From: Rugalucina vietnamica
Taxonomy: Eukaryota; Mollusca; Bivalvia; Lucinida; Lucinidae
Direction of reading: 5' to 3'
DNA length: 64,000 nt
Assembly (NCBI GenBank): GCA_964017185.1
Contig: OZ024875.1
Span: forward strand, 26,545,456 to 26,609,455
In this document: piece by piece, positions 33,640 through 55,125 of the stretch
Layout: every line of letters begins with the position of its first letter
Position numbering within the stretch: the stretch's first letter is position 1
Notes under the pieces: generated by a model
What the model saw: only the letters and a program-made list of their open reading frames with translations
Told to the model about the DNA's origin: nothing
The model's database searches: none
Translations under genes and position numbers: made by a program

Positions 33640-34560
33640 GTTAGAAATGTCATATTTCGAGCCTGTGGGTACTAATTTATATGGTTACTCACAATTGTGG
33701 GTATGTAAAATTTGGGAGCACTTTTGAAATGTTTGAAACTTGTTTTACTTTTTTTTTCTCAAATTTTGGGCAGGTAAATTTTGTGGTCTTCAACTTTGTT
33801 GGTACTCAAAATATGTGGGTATTCAAAAGTATGAATGATCAAATTTTGTAGGCACTCAAAATTGGTGGCAATTAGAAGATATAGATATTTTAGTAAGATG
33901 TTATTACATAAAATTGCGGCACTCGAAATATTTATATGATTCTTCAAATTTGAGTGTATTCAAAATAAGTGGGCATTCAAAAGTGCATATAAATATTTTG
34001 GGGTATTGAAAATGTTAGAACTATATTGTCTTGTAACACAAAGCATGGGCAAATTATGTTGGTCTTCACTATGAGAATGTTCACAAAATTCAATCACACA
34101 AAATTGTGGGTATTCAAAATAAGCTGGGTCATAAAATTATTAGTCAAGACAGAAGCTGTTCGTATGAAACTGGTGTGGTCTTGGGGTTCTCTACCGGTCC
34201 CGATAGCGTAATGGTTAGAGCGTTTGCTTCGGAAGCGGGAGGCGCGGGTTCTAATCCGGGCCGCGTCATACCAAAGACGTTAAAAATGGTACCAGTGGCT
34301 ACCTTGCTTGGCGCTCAGCATTAATAAGGCAAGCACTGGCTTCTCTCAAAAAGATAACTTCAATGATGGGAGCTCCATGTAATACTCTGTTTATGAGGTG
34401 TTTGGTACCTGGCAGATTCAGATTCTCATGGAATCGTTGGTGTTCAAGTTATTTGTATGTACAATGTGTATTCATAAATTAAAGAATTTCACGCTCTTTG
34501 TGCTCAGTAATTGTGGGTACTCAACATGTGGGTACCTAAAATAGTTTGGTACAAATGCAG
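33640..34560. repeat. Degenerate short-period minisatellite, interrupted by a SINE
   Basis: The phrase GTGGGTATTCAAAA and variants (GTGGGTACTCAA, GTAGGCACTCAAAA, GTGGGCATTCAAAA) recurs many times at roughly 20-35 bp steps from 33660 to 34135, and again at 34505-34550 after the tRNA-like insertion. Confidence 0.65.
34195..34330 (+). repeat. tRNA-derived SINE
   Basis: A box TAGCGTAATGG and B box GGTTCTAATCC in tRNA order. A CGG anticodon position can be drawn in a TTCGGAA loop, but the D and T stems are imperfect. A non-tRNA body (ACCAGTGGCTACCTTGCTTG, GCGCTCAGCATTAA) follows, as in bivalve tRNA-SINEs. Probably not a working tRNA gene. Confidence 0.6.

Positions 34561-37334: not shown

Positions 37335-37337
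<3 letters not shown>

Positions 37338-37375
<38 letters not shown>
37338..37375. repeat. (AG)n microsatellite at LINE 3' end
   Basis: AG repeat of about 38 bp directly abutting the short TCTGAA tandem tail of the LINE on its minus strand. Confidence 0.9.
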
Positions 37376-37377
<2 letters not shown>

Positions 37378-40300
37378 TGAATCTGAATCTGAATAGTTTA
37401 CTGGTGACACGCCAAATGACATTATTTCACCAGGGGTTCGGATGGGGGAGAAATTAGTCCCTTGAACGCACGAGTGAAGCGAACTTGGACACACAATCAT
37501 CTGACATTTCAGCAGTAGAAAAAAGAGAGTCAGGGAGGTCATTCCAGTCCCTGATAGTCTGGGGAAAAAACTACATTTATAGGCCTCTATACTAGCAGAT
37601 GGAAGCTGAAATGCCTTGGAGTGGCTATTTCTACAACGCCTAGTCTTTGGGATAAGGTCATCTGTAGGTATTCTGGCTTTACCCTTCAGACCTTTGTATA
37701 GTAATATAAGTCGATTATCCGTCCTCCTTTTCTTGAGAGATTCCCATTTGAGTTGTTCAAGAATGCCAGTCATACTACCTTCCTCGAAAGTATAATTCCT
37801 AGTTACAAATCTAGCGGCACGATTCTGTACCTTCTCCAATTCCTCCTGGAGGCATTTAGTATGGGGATCCCAAACAGAACTTCCATACTCCAGGACTGGG
37901 CGCACCAGTCCTTTATAAGCTGCTTCTTTAACATCTAGGGGGCAAGAAAATAAGTTTCTCCTCAAGAATCCAAGTGTTCTATTGGCTTTAGTACAGATAT
38001 TATTGATATGTGTATTCCACTTGAGGTCATTTGTAATTGTTACACCTAGATATTTAATGCTATCAACATTCTCCAATACCGTTCCCTCGAGGGTGTACGA
38101 GGCCTCAATTTTATTTATCCGCTTATTTGTCAGCTGCATCATGTTGCATTTGACAGGTTGAAATCTCATGCCCCATTTTCGGGCCCAGCTCCCTAAAAGG
38201 TCAATGTCTTTCTGAAGTTTCAATGTATCTTCTACTGTTATAATTTCACGGTAACAAACACAGTCATCAGCAAAAAGCCTGATTTGAGAGTCAATGCCAA
38301 CGGGTATGTCATTTATGTACAAGGAGAACAACAATGGACCGAGAACGGTGCCCTGAGGGACACCAGACACAACAGGGGCCCAGTCAGATTTAACACCATT
38401 AACTACTACCCTTTGCTGCCTGAAGCACAAAAAAGCATTTTAGTTAAGTTAAGGTAACTGAGTGGCCACCTATTGGGAAAATAGCTGCTCATTCGGCTTA
38501 CGATATGTTTCATGGTATAAGTGCCTGATTGTTAGTTTGGTTTTTTCCCACCTCGGTTTTTGGAGTGGGAATCTTTTTCTGATTGCGCCTTTTCCTGATC
38601 TTTGCCTACTTGTACCTTTTTTATCCATTCCAATGTCTTTCCACCTATACCATAACTAAACAATTTGCTCTTAAGAAGTTCATGTGGAGGGGTGTCAAAA
38701 GCTTTTTCAAAGTCCAAAATAAAAGTGTCAACCTGACCCTTTTTGTCCAATATTTTTGCCCAATCATTTATTACTGTAATCAACTGAGTTTCACAACTAT
38801 GCCATTTCCTGAATGCATGCTGTTTGTCCTACAAAAGATTATACTGGTCAAGATGACCCATGATGTTTGAGCAGACAATATGTTCTAGAAGTTTGCAAGG
38901 AATACAAGTCAAAGAAACTGGGCGGTAATTACAAGCAAGGGACCTGTCACCTTTCTTGAAAAGTGGACAAATATTAGCAAGTGACCATTCTTGGGGATTT
39001 CACCCGTATTGATTGACTGCTGGAAGAGATGTGCAAATACAGGTCCTAATTCTTTTGCCAATTCTTTTAGGACTCTAGGATGGAGTTCATCAGGTCCTAA
39101 GGCTTTAGATGGGTTCAGACCTTTAAGGAGTTTTGTTACTCCTTCCTTTGTAACAACAATTTCATCCATGAATGGGGCCGACCTATCCAGAAGTGGGACT
39201 TGGGTGTGTACCGTTTTGGTGAATACATCTGTGAACTGTCCATTAAATTCTTCTGCTTTTTCGAAATCTGATTGAGCAATACCACTTCCATTTTTCTTTT
39301 TCAAAGGGGGAATGCCTTGGGTATCTTTCCTCTGACTATTGATATACCAATAAAATCCCAGGGATTAACCTTAACGTCCCCTACCAAGTTATTGACATAA
39401 AGGTCATGCTGCTGCCTTAGCGAATCTTCCTCCTTATCTCAGGAGTTATCCATGGGACAGAAGAGACAGAGCGACTTGTTTTTGATGGGATATGCTTATC
39501 TGCCGAGTCCTGAATGAAAGATGTAATAAGATTGACATTTTCCTGAACCGAACGGGTATCCGAGTAGCCATTGAAATACTTTTCCTTTGCAAATTTTAAT
39601 GTTTCTGCCCTCATAGATTCATAATCACCTTTCTGGTACCGATACACCTTCCTCCGAGGTTTCTTAATGGGGGGAATAACAATCTTCAGCGTTCCAGAAA
39701 CAATATCATGATCACTGAGACAATCTGGGGAGTGAATATCTACAAACTGATTGGGAAGAGAAGTGATAATCAAGTCCAAAGTATTTCTTTCTCTGGTAGG
39801 GAAGTGGACTAATTGATCAAATCCATGATCATTAATAATGTCAACCAAAATTTGACCTTCAATCCTACTCAATGGGGACCCACATTTATTGTGTCTGTCC
39901 GGCCAAACAATATCTCCAAAGCTGAAATCCCCTAGGACATGAACTGAGGGGGGTTTATTTCCTTTATGTTTATATCCCCAATTTTGTTAAGCTGCTCTCT
40001 GAACAAAGTATCAAATTTCTGTAGGTCTTCCAAAGGTGTCAAGTTTTCATCACTATGGGGTGGCCTATACCAGCTTGCAACAAAATGTGCGGTTTTATTA
40101 GCGAATACTGTAAATTTCCATTGAGCATGGACTATCATTGTAAAAAGTTTCATTGATAAGACTTCACTTGTAAGATACTGACCAATCAATTTACACAAAG
40201 TGTCTTAAATTAGAACATTTACCCTTTGTGATTCAGCATGGTCAAGGCAAAGAAAAAAAAGAAGTAAACAACATGAAATTATTATATCAATTTTATTTGC

Positions 40301-45316: not shown

Positions 45317-46534
45317 CACATCTTGCATAAAGTATGGTAGCAATCCACAGTTTTTAGAGCATTTTTCAGTTAATTTTGCTAGATCCGCCAAAGTTGATAA
45401 TAGCTCTGTCCAATCTGGTGAACAATCCGATTTCTCCCATAAAATCATTAAATCAGATGTCTAACAACAAAATAACATCATTTAAATTGCCTAGAACTGA
45501 CTATCACCCTACCTGTATTGGGGATATTTTCCCCTACCCCCTCTTTCAGACCAGTGAATTTTCGTAAAATATGCCTGAAGTCTGGGCCCCCATGCATATT
45601 CTGTGCAAAAGGAAGCCCCATAGATCTCATGCAGATACTTAGAGAATCGACCCAGGATCATAATGAGCAGTGCACAAATATGTGCCATCCATCTACTTTT
45701 TTCGCTATTTGTGAACAAAGATAACCCCTGCAAAGTCGACAGTGAAGAGCGTCACCGGCTATGACTGGCGAACGATCCGGGATCCTTATATAATCCCGGT
45801 TTTTACCAGTCTAAAAATAGAAAATAAGTATTTTTCACATGTTTGAGGCATAATTGATCCGATTTGGGGAAAGATGTCGGCAAATTATTGAAAGAGGATA
45901 ATTTACAGCCCAATTTCATGCCCTACCCCTTCATATTGAAGCTGTACGAAACTGTGAATGGAACCTATATAATATAGTATATACGGATTGGATAAAAAAT
46001 CGGGCCGAAACGACTCACCAAAATTTGCCGAAACGACCCAGGGCCGAATCGACTTAGGCCGAAACGACCCAGGCCGAAACGACCCACGGCCGAAACGACT
46101 CAAGGCCGAAACGACTCGCGGCCGAAACGACCCGTTACCCTGACGGCGTAAGCCATAGCTGTTAAACAAATCTTACCATTTTTTACTTCCGGCAGGAAAA
46201 AATGGTAAAAAAGATCAAATCCCATTGATTTCTCTCCTTTCTTTGGTAAACATTTAAAGAAAAATTATTTATTCTCGTCTGTCAACGAGCTCAGGACTCA
46301 ATTATTCCATTAACTCGTCTAATTCCTTATTTCATCAACCCTTGTCGAGATGTCTGCCCAGCGGATTTTGACAAGAAATATATACTGATGCTGAATCCTA
46401 TCAAATTATTTTACAGAAAATTGCAGATTCATACAGTTCAAGGATTCGTACACTCGGCAGTTTTAGACTATTGTGAAATAAGGCCACTTCCAACAGCCTC
46501 GCTGTTGGGCTAGCTCATTAGCGACATGGTTTAA

Positions 46535-46890
46535 CAGGGATTTTTTCTGCAATTTTGGGAAGGGGCCCTAGGGCCTTTCTGATTGGGAAAATTAGCGACG
46601 TACACCCAGAATTTGGGAAAATTTCAAAGCATTCAAAGTTGATGATATTTTCCAATTTGACATAGTTAATTAAGGTTACTCATTTTAAATCATTATATAA
46701 TAACTTACAATCAAAGTTAAACATCATTTCAAACAGCAGAGTTTAATTTTTCCAAGGTTTAGGAACTGTTGAGAATTATTTTCTGCTGTGATTGGGAATT
46801 TTTTTCTCCAAATTGGGAAAAAAGTCACTTAATTTCCATTGGGAATGGGGCCTTATTTCGGCCCCTGAGACACCCAAAAAAAAATCCCTG
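46535..46890. mobile_element. hAT-like MITE inside the left TRIM LTR
   Basis: Ends CAGGGATTTTTT and AAAAAAATCCCTG. The uninterrupted right LTR gives the empty site (ACATGGTTAGAGTGG). Flanks GGTTTAA and GGTTAGA look like an imperfect 7-8-bp duplication. Removal leaves an LTR only 7 nt longer than the intact one. No transposase. Confidence 0.75.
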
Positions 46891-47215
46891 GGTTAGAGTG
46901 GTCGCTTGTCATGCAAGAGATCGCGGTTCGATCCCGGGTAGGGACATGGTCTCTTTCTCCTAAAATACTTCATTGGCGACGAGAAAATTTGGACAGAAGA
47001 GGTCTGGCAAGCCATTGTTGGTGGTAGTGGCGGATGCAGGAGCGAGGCTTATAGCCAGCTCTGTCTGTGGAATTCTGTGAGCATAGCTCTCAAGTTATTA
47101 ATTCTACTTCTCTACATGTCGACGGGTAGTACTCGGCGACTGCCAAGACCTCAAAGATAAAGTGGGGAAGAATATTGTGAAATAAGGCCACTTCCAACAG
47201 CCTCGCTGTTGGGCT

Positions 47216-47287
47216 AGCTCGTTAGCGACATGGTTAGAGTGGTCGCTTGTCACGCAAGAGATCGCGGTTCGATCCCGGGTAGGGACA
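47216..47287 (+). ncRNA. tRNA-Asp-like segment within TRIM LTR (Pol III boxes)
   Basis: CTCGTTAG start, A-box-like TAGCGACATGG (47223-47233), a GTC anticodon position (47249-47251) in TTGTCAC, and B box GGTTCGATCCC (47266-47276). Stems are imperfect, so it is a tRNA relic or an internal Pol III promoter rather than a working tRNA. The same sequence is in the left LTR (46511-46525 plus 46891-46944). Confidence 0.6.
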
Positions 47288-47317
47288 TGGTCTCTTTCTC
47301 CTAAAATACTTCAAGAC

Positions 47318-48175
47318 CTATCTATCTATCTCTATATACTGCCGTACGCCCTCGCGGACATTCTAGGCAGGGTTGCGCATGGTCTGTTAGTATCAGACAG
47401 TTTAAAAGAATGAAAATTTAGACAAGAATGGAGTGTGATAGTGAAGGATAAAAACAGATGATAGGTTAAAATAGATGAGAGTAGCTAAAAACAGGTTAAA
47501 AACAAGCTTTTCTGGAATCAAGGTCGAGAGTGTTGCAGCTTACAGATAGCAGCCTTAATGTAAGATGTATACTGGCTTCCTCCTGTATCGCGGCCCTTAT
47601 TTGTAAACAGAAAGAATCAAACAAACATGATCAATAAATGAAATTTATTATACCTCAACAATTTCCAAAATCCTTCCCCTGCAACCCTTTTATGATGAAA
47701 ATTACAAGACATTTGTCAATATTTTGTGAAAACCGCAAATGTGTGACCATGTTGGTATATACCCATGTGGCAAAAGTGACTTCTGTATCGCGGGGTTCAC
47801 CTAAAACGTGAATGCAAAAGTTTCCATGTAAGGAGATAACTTGACCTCGTAATGGCGCATGACCTTTGACGCCCAGACGACAGATGCTGACTCAAAGCAA
47901 GTATAATCAACCGGTGTTTTAGGTACTGAGGGGACATTTTATGGGTAGGGGGTAACCAGTATGTGCAAAAATACGAATTCTACTTAACTTTTGTAAAGGT
48001 TTACATTTACCCTCCACTTTTCATGACAATATGCACAATTTTCACTGGAATTCAGAGTTTGACATCTGCTGCGAAAGATGCCGATTGTAGGGGGTGCTAG
48101 GTTCGAAAATTCACGTGATATGCAAATGCCGCGATACAGAAGCTACCACGATACAGTACGAACTGAGTATAAGAT
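47318..48175. other. Unclassified insertion with inverted CTGTATCGCGG motifs
   Basis: Begins with (CTAT)n and CCCTCGCGGACATTCTAGG, which recurs inverted beside the GATA array at 51160. TCCTGTATCGCGG (47583) and GCCGCGATACAG (48129) are inverted with respect to each other. No gene is seen. Confidence 0.4.
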
Positions 48176-52940: not shown

Positions 52941-55125
52941 ATGTCAGGACAGGTGAGGATTTTTCAAAAAATGTGAGAAAGATTCTCGCATTTTATCATC
53001 AACAAAAAATAACAGTGTATTTGCTTATAAATGTCTACTTAACAAAGTGAGGTTTTAACGATGTAAAGCTAACAAGTCTTGAACGACTGGCGACTAGACT
53101 GAAATATGAGCCTATGCATGAGAAAACCAACAATTTGGGTTTATGACCAGGTCCGACACAAACCAGGCTGTACAGTCAAGGAATAAAGCTAGAAGCTTGA
53201 AACTTTGGATATAAGTAGAAGAGGAACTACTATCCAAGTGGCGAAAACAAAGGCGCTGATCGGCTTCCTAGTTACTGGGAAGCTGATCTGCACCTTTGTT
53301 TATGCATATGCAAATTGTTGGTTTTCTCATGCGAAGGCTCATAATTATTGTGTTACAGATTGATGGTTCTATGGTGTCTCTGGATTCCATGGAGGATGGT
53401 TCAGAATCAAGTCGTATCTACAACAGCGGCGAACACTCGGGATACCTCATAGACAACATGGAACAGTTCAGGGTCGACAGTGGCTTTACTGATATAACTA
53501 TTGATGTTGAGGGAAGGCAGTTCGCCTGTCATAAAGTTGTTCTAGCTGCAGGCTCGCCTTACTTTCGGTCCATGTTTTCATCGGGTATGGAAGAATGTCA
53601 TAAGAATGTGATCAAAATGCAGCAGATTGCCAGTGATGTTTTCGAGCAGGTTCTTGGATTCATTTACACAGGAAAAGTTTGTATTACTGAGAATCTTGTT
53701 GAGGACCTGTTTGCTCAGGCCCATATATTTCAAATTTCTACATTGATCAGCCTGTGCGTGGATTTCTTTGAGAAGAACATGAAAGATCACAATTGTTTGT
53801 CAGTTTTGACTCTAGCAGACATTCATGCCCACAAGCCTCTGTACCTCTTCGTGAAGAAATTTTGTTGTGAGAATTTTCAAACTCTACGTCAGGACGATGA
53901 TCTTTATAAACTGTCACCAGAGTGTATGATAGATCTGTTGCAGGACAGACAACTGAACTGTGAGACTGAGGAGATGGTCTACCACACTGCTTTGAAATGG
54001 CTAGAGTATGACATAGCCCAGAGGAGAGTGTTCCGTTATAGAATTCTCGAATGCATCAAGTTTTCACTACTTTCAAAGCCTTTCTTGATTGATTACGCAT
54101 CAAGGTCATCTCACGTCATTGGGGATGACAGGGGCAGAGAACTCCTACATGATGCTTTACTGTTCCACACGATTCCAGCCAGACGACATCAACTGCCGTC
54201 ATACCAGACGACACCAAGGAAGAATTTCATGTATGCTGAAGTTGCGGTGCTGTTAGGGGGCAGGCTGGCTGATGGGCTGAGTAATGATGTAGAGTGCTTT
54301 ATGGCTGATACAACCGACTTTATAACTTTGAAACAACTGCCGTTTAAGAAGCGAAATGAGTTTGCCGTCTGCACAATTGGCAATGATATTTATGTATCAG
54401 GTGGTCTAAGGAGTGCCGAATTCTGGAAGTATGACCCTGTGTTTGATTGTTGGTTACGTGGAACAAGCTTGCAGCATGCTCGTAGACGTCATGGCATGGC
54501 GGCTGTGGATGAGCACATCTTTGTTCTTGGTGGGTTTGATGAGGAGAATGTGTTGTCCTCTGTTGAATACTGGCAGGCGGACATGAATAAATGGGAAGAT
54601 GGGGGAAACTTGAATCAGCCTGTAGAAAACATGGGCTTTGCCACTTACGGACGGAAAATTTATCTTTTTGGTGGCAAGAATAACGACGAAGTTGTCACTA
54701 ATTGTGTCCAGTATTATGATACAGTCACTAAGTCGTGTACGACTCTCGCATGTGATTTGCCGGCCAACGACATGTGCCTTAATGCCGTACTGCTGAACAA
54801 CTACATCTACATCGTTGGACTGGAGGGTTTCTTCAGATTCTCCCCCGACAGTGAAAACTGGGACATATTGCCTGACATGAGTTGTGCACGTGATTTCGTC
54901 AGCTTGGCGGTCCTGAACGAGAAGTTGTACGCTCTCGGTGGACGTCGACGTGGAGCAAAGGATAACCTGTACACTGACATCATTGAGTGCTATGACCCAC
55001 ACACAAATCAGTGGGAGTGTAAGGGCAGTCTGCCTGTGCCCATGTACTCCTATGGATGTGTACGCATATTTTTGAACAAGATGAGTCCAGTGAAGACCGA
55101 GTTCATTGCAAATAAAATGGAATGA
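52941..55125 (+). CDS. Kelch-like BTB-BACK-Kelch protein, KLHL24/KLHL6-like
   Basis: Two coding exons: 52941-52952 (MSGQ, ending CAG|GTGAGG) and 53359-55125 (acceptor TTGTGTTACAG), 592 residues. The BTB domain (about residues 35-145) includes DSGFTDITIDVEGRQFACHK and FRSMFSSGM. BACK follows (about 150-255; ALKWLEYDIAQRRVFRY). Six kelch repeats follow, with VLLGG, VSGG, VLGG, LFGG and ALGGRRRG motifs. KLHL proteins of this type are Cullin-3 ubiquitin-ligase adaptors. Closest by eye to KLHL24/KLHL6 (EFAVCTIGNDIYVSGG and a similar C-terminus). The upstream in-frame ATG at 53296 lies in an intronic MITE and is not used. Exact orthology is uncertain. Confidence 0.92.
53107..53341 (+). repeat. Palindromic MITE family, reference copy (kelch gene intron)
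   Basis: About 235 bp. Left end ATGAGCCTATGCATGAGAAA, right end GGTTTTCTCATGCGAAGGCT. Internal order: AATTTGGG, CCGACACAAACCAGGCTGTA, TAGAAGCTTGAAACTTTGGA, then a central hairpin AACAAAGGCGCTGATC / GATCTGCACCTTTGTTT. No open frame. About 17 copies or fragments are in the window in both orientations, several inside KDM5 introns. Flanks suggest a 2-3-bp AT-rich duplication. Confidence 0.8.

Follow-up and report, generated by a model that had tools for sequence, protein, structure and literature searches.

Genomic context and structure of the element

The window analysed here, a stretch of 64,000 nucleotides, holds exons of a KDM5-like histone demethylase (6077-26321, minus strand; ARID, JmjC, C5HC2, PLU-1 and PHD domains), fragments of a non-LTR retrotransposon (37336-39986, minus strand), whose RVT_1 and endonuclease domains lie in separate frames, and a gene for a KLHL24-like protein (53287-55125). 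The KLHL24-like protein was placed in a tree with 22 of its 49 database matches. The window sequence was joined by one relative (100/100), then by Mya, Dreissena and three further rows (100/99), and next by Sinanodonta (100/99). The five pteriomorph rows stood apart. By this one gene, the host groups with heterodont bivalves.

At 46469-47313 we found an element in which a pair of 141-bp LTRs encloses a 200-bp interior (Table 1). The tetranucleotide AGAC abuts both outer ends of the LTR pair and represents a 4-bp target duplication. The initial annotation described near-identical 141-bp direct repeats, and the two LTRs indeed differ at only 2 of 141 sites (46517 A against 47221 G, and 46912 T against 47253 C). 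The 5′ LTR is, however, interrupted by a 359-bp insert which had not been mentioned, and it lies in two pieces, 46469-46531 and 46895-46972. Both the primer-binding site TGGCGACGAG and the purine-rich tract AAAGTGGGGAAGAA occur a single time in the window when both strands are searched. The hairpin reported for each LTR is present, with 8 bp and the loop CTC. On its own, it is not a rare feature, because the window contains 33 perfect hairpins of 8 bp with a loop of 3-8.

Table 1. Features of the element and its immediate flanks (positions in the window)
Feature	Position	Strand	
Left target duplication AGAC	46465..46468	.	
5′ LTR, first piece (LTR positions 1-63)	46469..46531	+	
Hairpin CCAACAGCCTCGCTGTTGG, 5′ LTR	46490..46508	+	
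A-like box TAGCGACATGG, 5′ LTR (LTR positions 51-61)	46519..46529	+	
MITE-like insert, 359 bp, 12-bp inverted ends CAGGGATTTTTT/AAAAAATCCCTG	46532..46890	.	
5′ LTR, second piece (LTR positions 60-141); starting with the 4-base insert-made duplication GGTT	46891..46972	+	
B box GGTTCGATCCC, 5′ LTR	46925..46935	+	
Non-coding interior, 200 bp	46973..47172	+	
Primer-binding site TGGCGACGAG, complement of tRNA-Ser-GCT 3′ end + CCA	46974..46983	+	
Purine-rich tract AAAGTGGGGAAGAA; most other copies have GGGGAGGAA	47159..47172	+	
3′ LTR, 141 bp	47173..47313	+	
Hairpin, 3′ LTR	47194..47212	+	
A-like box TAGCGACATGG, 3′ LTR	47223..47233	+	
B box GGTTCGATCCC, 3′ LTR	47266..47276	+	
Right target duplication AGAC	47314..47317	.	

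The additional bases sit between LTR positions 63 and 64. Their ends form a perfect 12-bp inverted repeat flanked by GGTT on each side, and a diverged relative of the insert was found at locus L023 (88-90 % over two pieces). The insert contains seven runs of at least four T and starts 2 nt past the A-like box. As it parts the A-like box from the B box, the putative 5′ promoter of the window copy is broken. This MITE-like insertion into the 5′ LTR disrupted the window copy at a later stage.

Two other repeats lie nearby. Eight head-to-tail units of 15-16 bp similar to GGCCGAAACGACTCA are located at 46003-46135, 330 bp upstream of the element, and a MITE-like inverted repeat with 34-bp arms, 79 % complementary and 295 bp apart, is located at 47780-48142.

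Copies in the genome and mode of spread

We searched the window's own 1.09-Gb assembly using the LTR and the interior as queries. At least 41 matches were obtained with the LTR, for which 40 of the 283 first-look candidates were scored, and at least 40 with the interior, for which 40 of 64 were scored. As only part of the candidates was scored, the copy counts are lower bounds and are biased towards query-like copies. Complete copies other than the window copy were sought among the first 60 loci, requiring LTRs of about 131 nt or more and a spacing within 150-260 bp, and identical flanks were counted once. In this way we recovered at least 26 distinct complete copies with lengths of 465-490 bp. 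An interior of a second type, about 201 bp long, occurs together with the same LTR and has both of its ends in common with the first type. The leader pattern, with up to three mismatches allowed, occurred 127 times in the genome against two occurrences of the reversed control. Scans of viral contigs and of genome contigs with the LTR, leader and insert patterns gave no matches.

The target duplication was exactly 4 bp long in 21 of the 26 complete copies and longer in none, which excludes a chance arrangement. Three of the four duplication bases are retained in L002, L004 and L048, and two of the four in L007 and L025, both of which are fused copies. Within a copy, the two LTRs differ at 0-7 sites (median 2.5). 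Identical pairs were found in three of the 26 copies, so the recent activity proposed for the element holds for the family.

Alternatively, the 141-bp unit could be a tRNA-derived SINE that spreads alone, with the pair in the window being a coincidence or a tandem insertion. Single LTRs do exist (L015, L016 and L018, all with CTAT on both sides, and also L019), and the LTR query recovered more first-look candidates than the interior query (283 against 64). However, LTR recombination is expected to leave single LTRs, and L015, L016 and L018 represent one insertion carried by something larger, as their flanks are identical. We also looked for copies in which the unit moves with its own duplications and lacks the primer site and purine tract between pairs, which the initial annotation regarded as the mark of a SINE. 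In the complete copies, the primer site and the purine tract lie between the LTRs and the duplication lies outside the pair. With 26 complete copies having the interior between their LTRs, 21 of them with an exact 4-bp duplication outside the pair, the SINE reading was rejected on the duplications flanking the LTR pairs and we regard it as very improbable. The element spreads as an LTR element. The original interpretation as a miniature LTR retrotransposon (TRIM) with a tRNA-like LTR stretch, in a bivalve, proved right.

Some copies have a more complex surrounding. L014, L021 and L026 show identical flanks around a copy of the second interior type, which points to one insertion multiplied together with a larger repeat. 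In the TRIM copy at L005:355-1641, about 800 bp are inserted ahead of the 3′ LTR, and TTAC is the outer flank on both sides.

The tRNA-like stretch and the promoter

On both strands of the window, the B box GGTTCGANNCC is matched exactly only by the two copies of GGTTCGATCCC, at 46925 and 47266. The A-like box TAGCGACATGG begins 43 nt upstream of the B box, which is a tRNA-like spacing. We scored the tRNA-likeness of the LTR against 16 human tRNAs, with 300 dinucleotide-model sequences per tRNA as controls. The LTR core scored 60 against Ile-AAT, 12.7 SD above the model sequences (maximum 30 in 300), and 54 against Asp-GTC, 10.4 SD above them (maximum 31 in 300). Among 4262 window tiles, those of the LTR were top-scoring for all three tRNAs tried; a tile at 34201 scored 47 against Ala-AGC, equal to the best 5′ LTR tile. 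The stretch at 34200-34265 has tRNA-like A and B regions, the latter being the B-like GGTTCTAATCC, and is perhaps an old SINE head.

Regarding the tRNA itself, ARAGORN called none in the element at default thresholds, and at 80 % thresholds it returned an 84-base structure with a malformed anticodon, which is not GTC. The Rfam tRNA model gave no match even at E 10. Base pairs are retained at 3/5 positions in the anticodon stem, 4/5 in the T stem and at most 5/7 in the acceptor stem. The tRNA scores together with the ARAGORN and Rfam misses and the broken stems indicate a tRNA-derived stretch and not a tRNA gene, with an insecure Asp isotype. A tRNA-Asp gene was rejected based on the same misses and the broken arms. 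From the annotated A box, GTC anticodon and B box of tRNA-Asp type, the exact B box and the tRNA-like character were retained, whereas the A box is only A-like, Asp is a weak assignment scoring below Ile-AAT, and the anticodon returned by ARAGORN does not agree with GTC.

From these motifs, we infer that Pol III may transcribe the element using the A-like and B boxes. The same TRIM could also be transcribed by Pol II, in which case the tRNA-like stretch would be left over from a former SINE insertion into the LTR and would have ceased to drive transcription. Consistent with Pol II, the tRNA models do not match, pairing in the anticodon stem is disrupted, and evolution is no slower in the A and B boxes than at other LTR sites. 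No selection on the boxes was detected among 92 distinct full LTR copies, where they vary like random LTR sites and 4368 of 10000 random draws had equally few changes (non-CpG sites). This test is nevertheless low in power because the family is young, and several features of the element argue against the Pol II reading. No TATA, CCAAT or poly(A) signal motifs were found in the 3′ LTR, the B box is exact and lies at the tRNA-like distance from the A-like box, and TTTT is absent from the 419 nt following the insert. Such an absence is not striking for sequences of the element's composition (641 of 2000 model sequences) and was seen in 57 of 2000 sequences of the window's composition. Overall, we consider transcription by Pol II somewhat less likely than not. 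The pairs of the LTR hairpin are all intact in 77 of the 92 LTR copies.

Comparison with known TRIMs

Cassandra, a plant TRIM with 5S rRNA, resembles the element in that each LTR carries a Pol III promoter motif derived from a small RNA. It differs in the RNA and the host, 5S rRNA and plants in Cassandra against a tRNA-like stretch and a bivalve here, and no Rfam match to 5S rRNA was found in the window. According to the initial annotation, a tRNA-bearing animal counterpart of Cassandra would be a parallel invention. Such animal elements had already been reported by Kojima (2024), who named TRIMs with tRNA-like LTRs Helenus, in a paper that also describes Cassandra as a plant TRIM with 5S rRNA in its LTR (PMC10886601).

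According to the main text of that paper, Helenus elements are non-coding and 311-1263 bp long, and the 51 bivalve families come from five orders of Pteriomorphia, the only group given there for molluscan families (PMC10886601). Animal Helenus elements have 4-bp target duplications and Gypsy-like primer sites, with tRNA-Ser among the bivalve primers, and most families have a box A with TRGCY and YGG and a box B with GGTTC and are without a functional tRNA (PMC10886601). Pol III transcription of Helenus is expected in the same text, where the promoter function is said to await validation and the way in which TRIMs stay dependent on a helper is left as a question (PMC10886601).

Compared with this description, our element is likewise a short non-coding LTR element (465-490 bp in the 26 complete copies). 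Both LTRs contain a tRNA-like sequence, the primer site fits the 3′ end of a tRNA, a purine tract is present, and the target duplications are 4 bp long (exact in 21 of 26 copies, AGAC in the window). Its A region can also be read as TAGCT...TGG with additional bases between, and its B box is exact. Judged by its size, tRNA-like LTRs, primer site, purine tract and target duplications, the element very probably represents a Helenus-type LTR retrotransposon that is non-autonomous, i.e. a TRIM with a tRNA-like LTR stretch. Unlike the molluscan Helenus families listed in the main text, it resides in a host that groups with heterodonts, by one gene, and not with Pteriomorphia. The terms Heterodont, Venerida, Mercenaria, Ruditapes, Unionida and Imparidentia are absent from that main text (PMC10886601), and no other report of such elements in heterodonts was recognised in a literature search of titles and abstract starts. 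Elements of this kind are thus already published, but the present one occurs in a group of bivalves absent from the main text of the describing paper. New here are the heterodont-grouped host, which would extend the known range of Helenus, and the fused copies described below, which are the more interesting part.

Another bivalve TRIM, biv-TRIM (Satovic 2019, PMC6934838), was considered as a possible family for the element. Both have a bivalve host, the TRIM structure and solo repeats, and the biv-TRIM purine tract GGGGAGA can be set beside GGGGAGGAA of most copies here. However, in the published description the repeats of biv-TRIM measure 202-218 bp and its interior 77-80 bp, and a clear primer site is missing (PMC6934838), against a 141-bp LTR, an interior of about 200 bp and a primer site in our element. 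The two have no common motif, as the biv-TRIM PCR primers and its inner motif TGATCCCAAAGGAC mismatched the element at 8/20, 8/20 and 5/14 positions at best. Membership in biv-TRIM was rejected on the lengths and the motif mismatches, and we hold it to be almost certainly wrong.

Primer tRNA and fused copies

Using the human tRNA-Ser-GCT as a query, we found 37 places in the genome. Two of them were fetched, and ARAGORN identified both as tRNA-Ser with the anticodon GCT; CCA is encoded in neither. The match to the complement of the mature tRNA-Ser-GCT 3′ end, including CCA, covers 10 nt in the window copy, 11 nt in the second interior type and 10 nt in L091, a coding element discussed below. 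The tRNA-Ser primer-binding site initially annotated was confirmed, its 10 nt fitting the tRNA-Ser-GCT of the element's own genome.

Several copies are fused to other sequences. In L013, 53 nt of tRNA complement including CCA connect a foreign LTR to the TRIM interior, which is joined at its primer site. The tRNA stretch is identical to gene L096 at 53/53 nt and to L095 at 52/53 nt. The copied tRNA-Ser-GCT at L013:1246-1298 reaches the anticodon loop. Retroviral plus-strand synthesis usually stops near position 58 of the tRNA, and the copying past this stop in L013 suggests either that the tRNA was unmodified or that an unusual read-through took place.

L025 contains another foreign LTR, followed by 16-17 nt of tRNA complement, tail to tail with a TRIM LTR; the 17th nt may belong to the TRIM LTR. 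Because the native primer site of the foreign element matches only 11 nt, the extra nucleotides appear to be copied from the tRNA. L010 has an inverted pair of TRIM LTRs with a 14-nt tRNA match. As the last 2 nt of this match may be LTR, it hardly exceeds the 11 nt matched by the second interior type. At this locus (L010:1335-1641, with L027 representing the same place), the TRIM LTRs are arranged head to head around 25 bp of primer-site sequence, and the outer flanks are TCAC and TTAC.

In retroviral reverse transcription, plus-strand strong-stop DNA together with template switching would produce such junctions. If, as we infer, this scheme can be applied here, the fused copies look like fossils of reverse-transcription intermediates.

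Candidate helper elements

A genome search with the foreign LTR of L025 gave 31 matches. Read by eye, they include nine clear same-strand LTR pairs 5.3-5.7 kb apart, in which one match extends through the primer site and the other ends at the LTR end. They belong to a larger LTR element with a 224-bp LTR (by subtraction) that starts with TGTGG and with an 11-nt primer site that is the same as that of the TRIM. Its copy C13 has the purine tract GGGGGGAA before the LTR starting TGTGG, and CCGG on each side as a 4-bp duplication (one copy, by eye). At L007, a TRIM copy without the target duplication, the 3′ region of the larger element ends about 230 bp upstream (88-96 % over longer pieces). An LTR with primer site of this element lies 5.4 kb upstream of L007, at C3:15211125, with no second LTR among the matches listed.

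The junctions at L007 and L025 tie the TRIM to the 5.3-5.7-kb LTR element, which is a likely candidate helper of the TRIM. The two have the 11-nt primer site and, in one copy, the 4-bp duplication in common, and they are fused at L025 and L007, whereas the 224-bp LTR and the much longer interior set the larger element apart. Regarding its putative coding capacity, a 441-nt piece is open over 146 codons and had no Pfam match over the cut-off (best E 0.094). No RNase H was seen by eye in the nine paired copies among 150 scored matches of 2475 candidates.

In the proposed scheme, RNA would be made from the TRIM, perhaps by Pol III via the A-like and B boxes, and would be packaged in particles of the larger LTR element. 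The tRNA-Ser-GCT would prime the copying of the TRIM RNA, and the enzymes of the larger element would integrate the TRIM cDNA. We tentatively suggest, with somewhat less than even confidence, that the genome preserves reverse-transcription intermediates of a heterodont tRNA-promoter TRIM, in which TRIM DNA is linked both to copied tRNA-Ser-GCT and to a 5.3-5.7-kb LTR element that was packaged with it and has the primer site and the 4-bp duplication in common with it. Such elements would be made by Pol III and yet copied by the machinery of LTR elements that are transcribed by Pol II. Since the junctions at L007, L013 and L025 name the primer tRNA and a candidate helper, co-packaging becomes testable. 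Should the suggestion be correct, the fossils identify the primer and the helper of a Helenus element and, if the element was also inherited from a common ancestor, molluscan Helenus predates the split of Pteriomorphia and Heterodonta.

We also considered L091, a Ty3/Gypsy element from the same genome with protease, reverse transcriptase, RNase H and integrase in one frame of 1193 aa. It has the enzymes and also the primer site of the TRIM, which in both elements is set off by one base from an LTR ending in CA. Unlike the TRIM, it is coding and has 197-bp LTRs, and beyond the primer site there is no convincing similarity. As its flanks share 5 bp (CCTGT, by eye) and not 4, L091 was disfavoured as the integrase donor and rejected as the helper. 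No ORF of 150 aa was found in L093, and L092 contains three ORFs of 154-390 aa.
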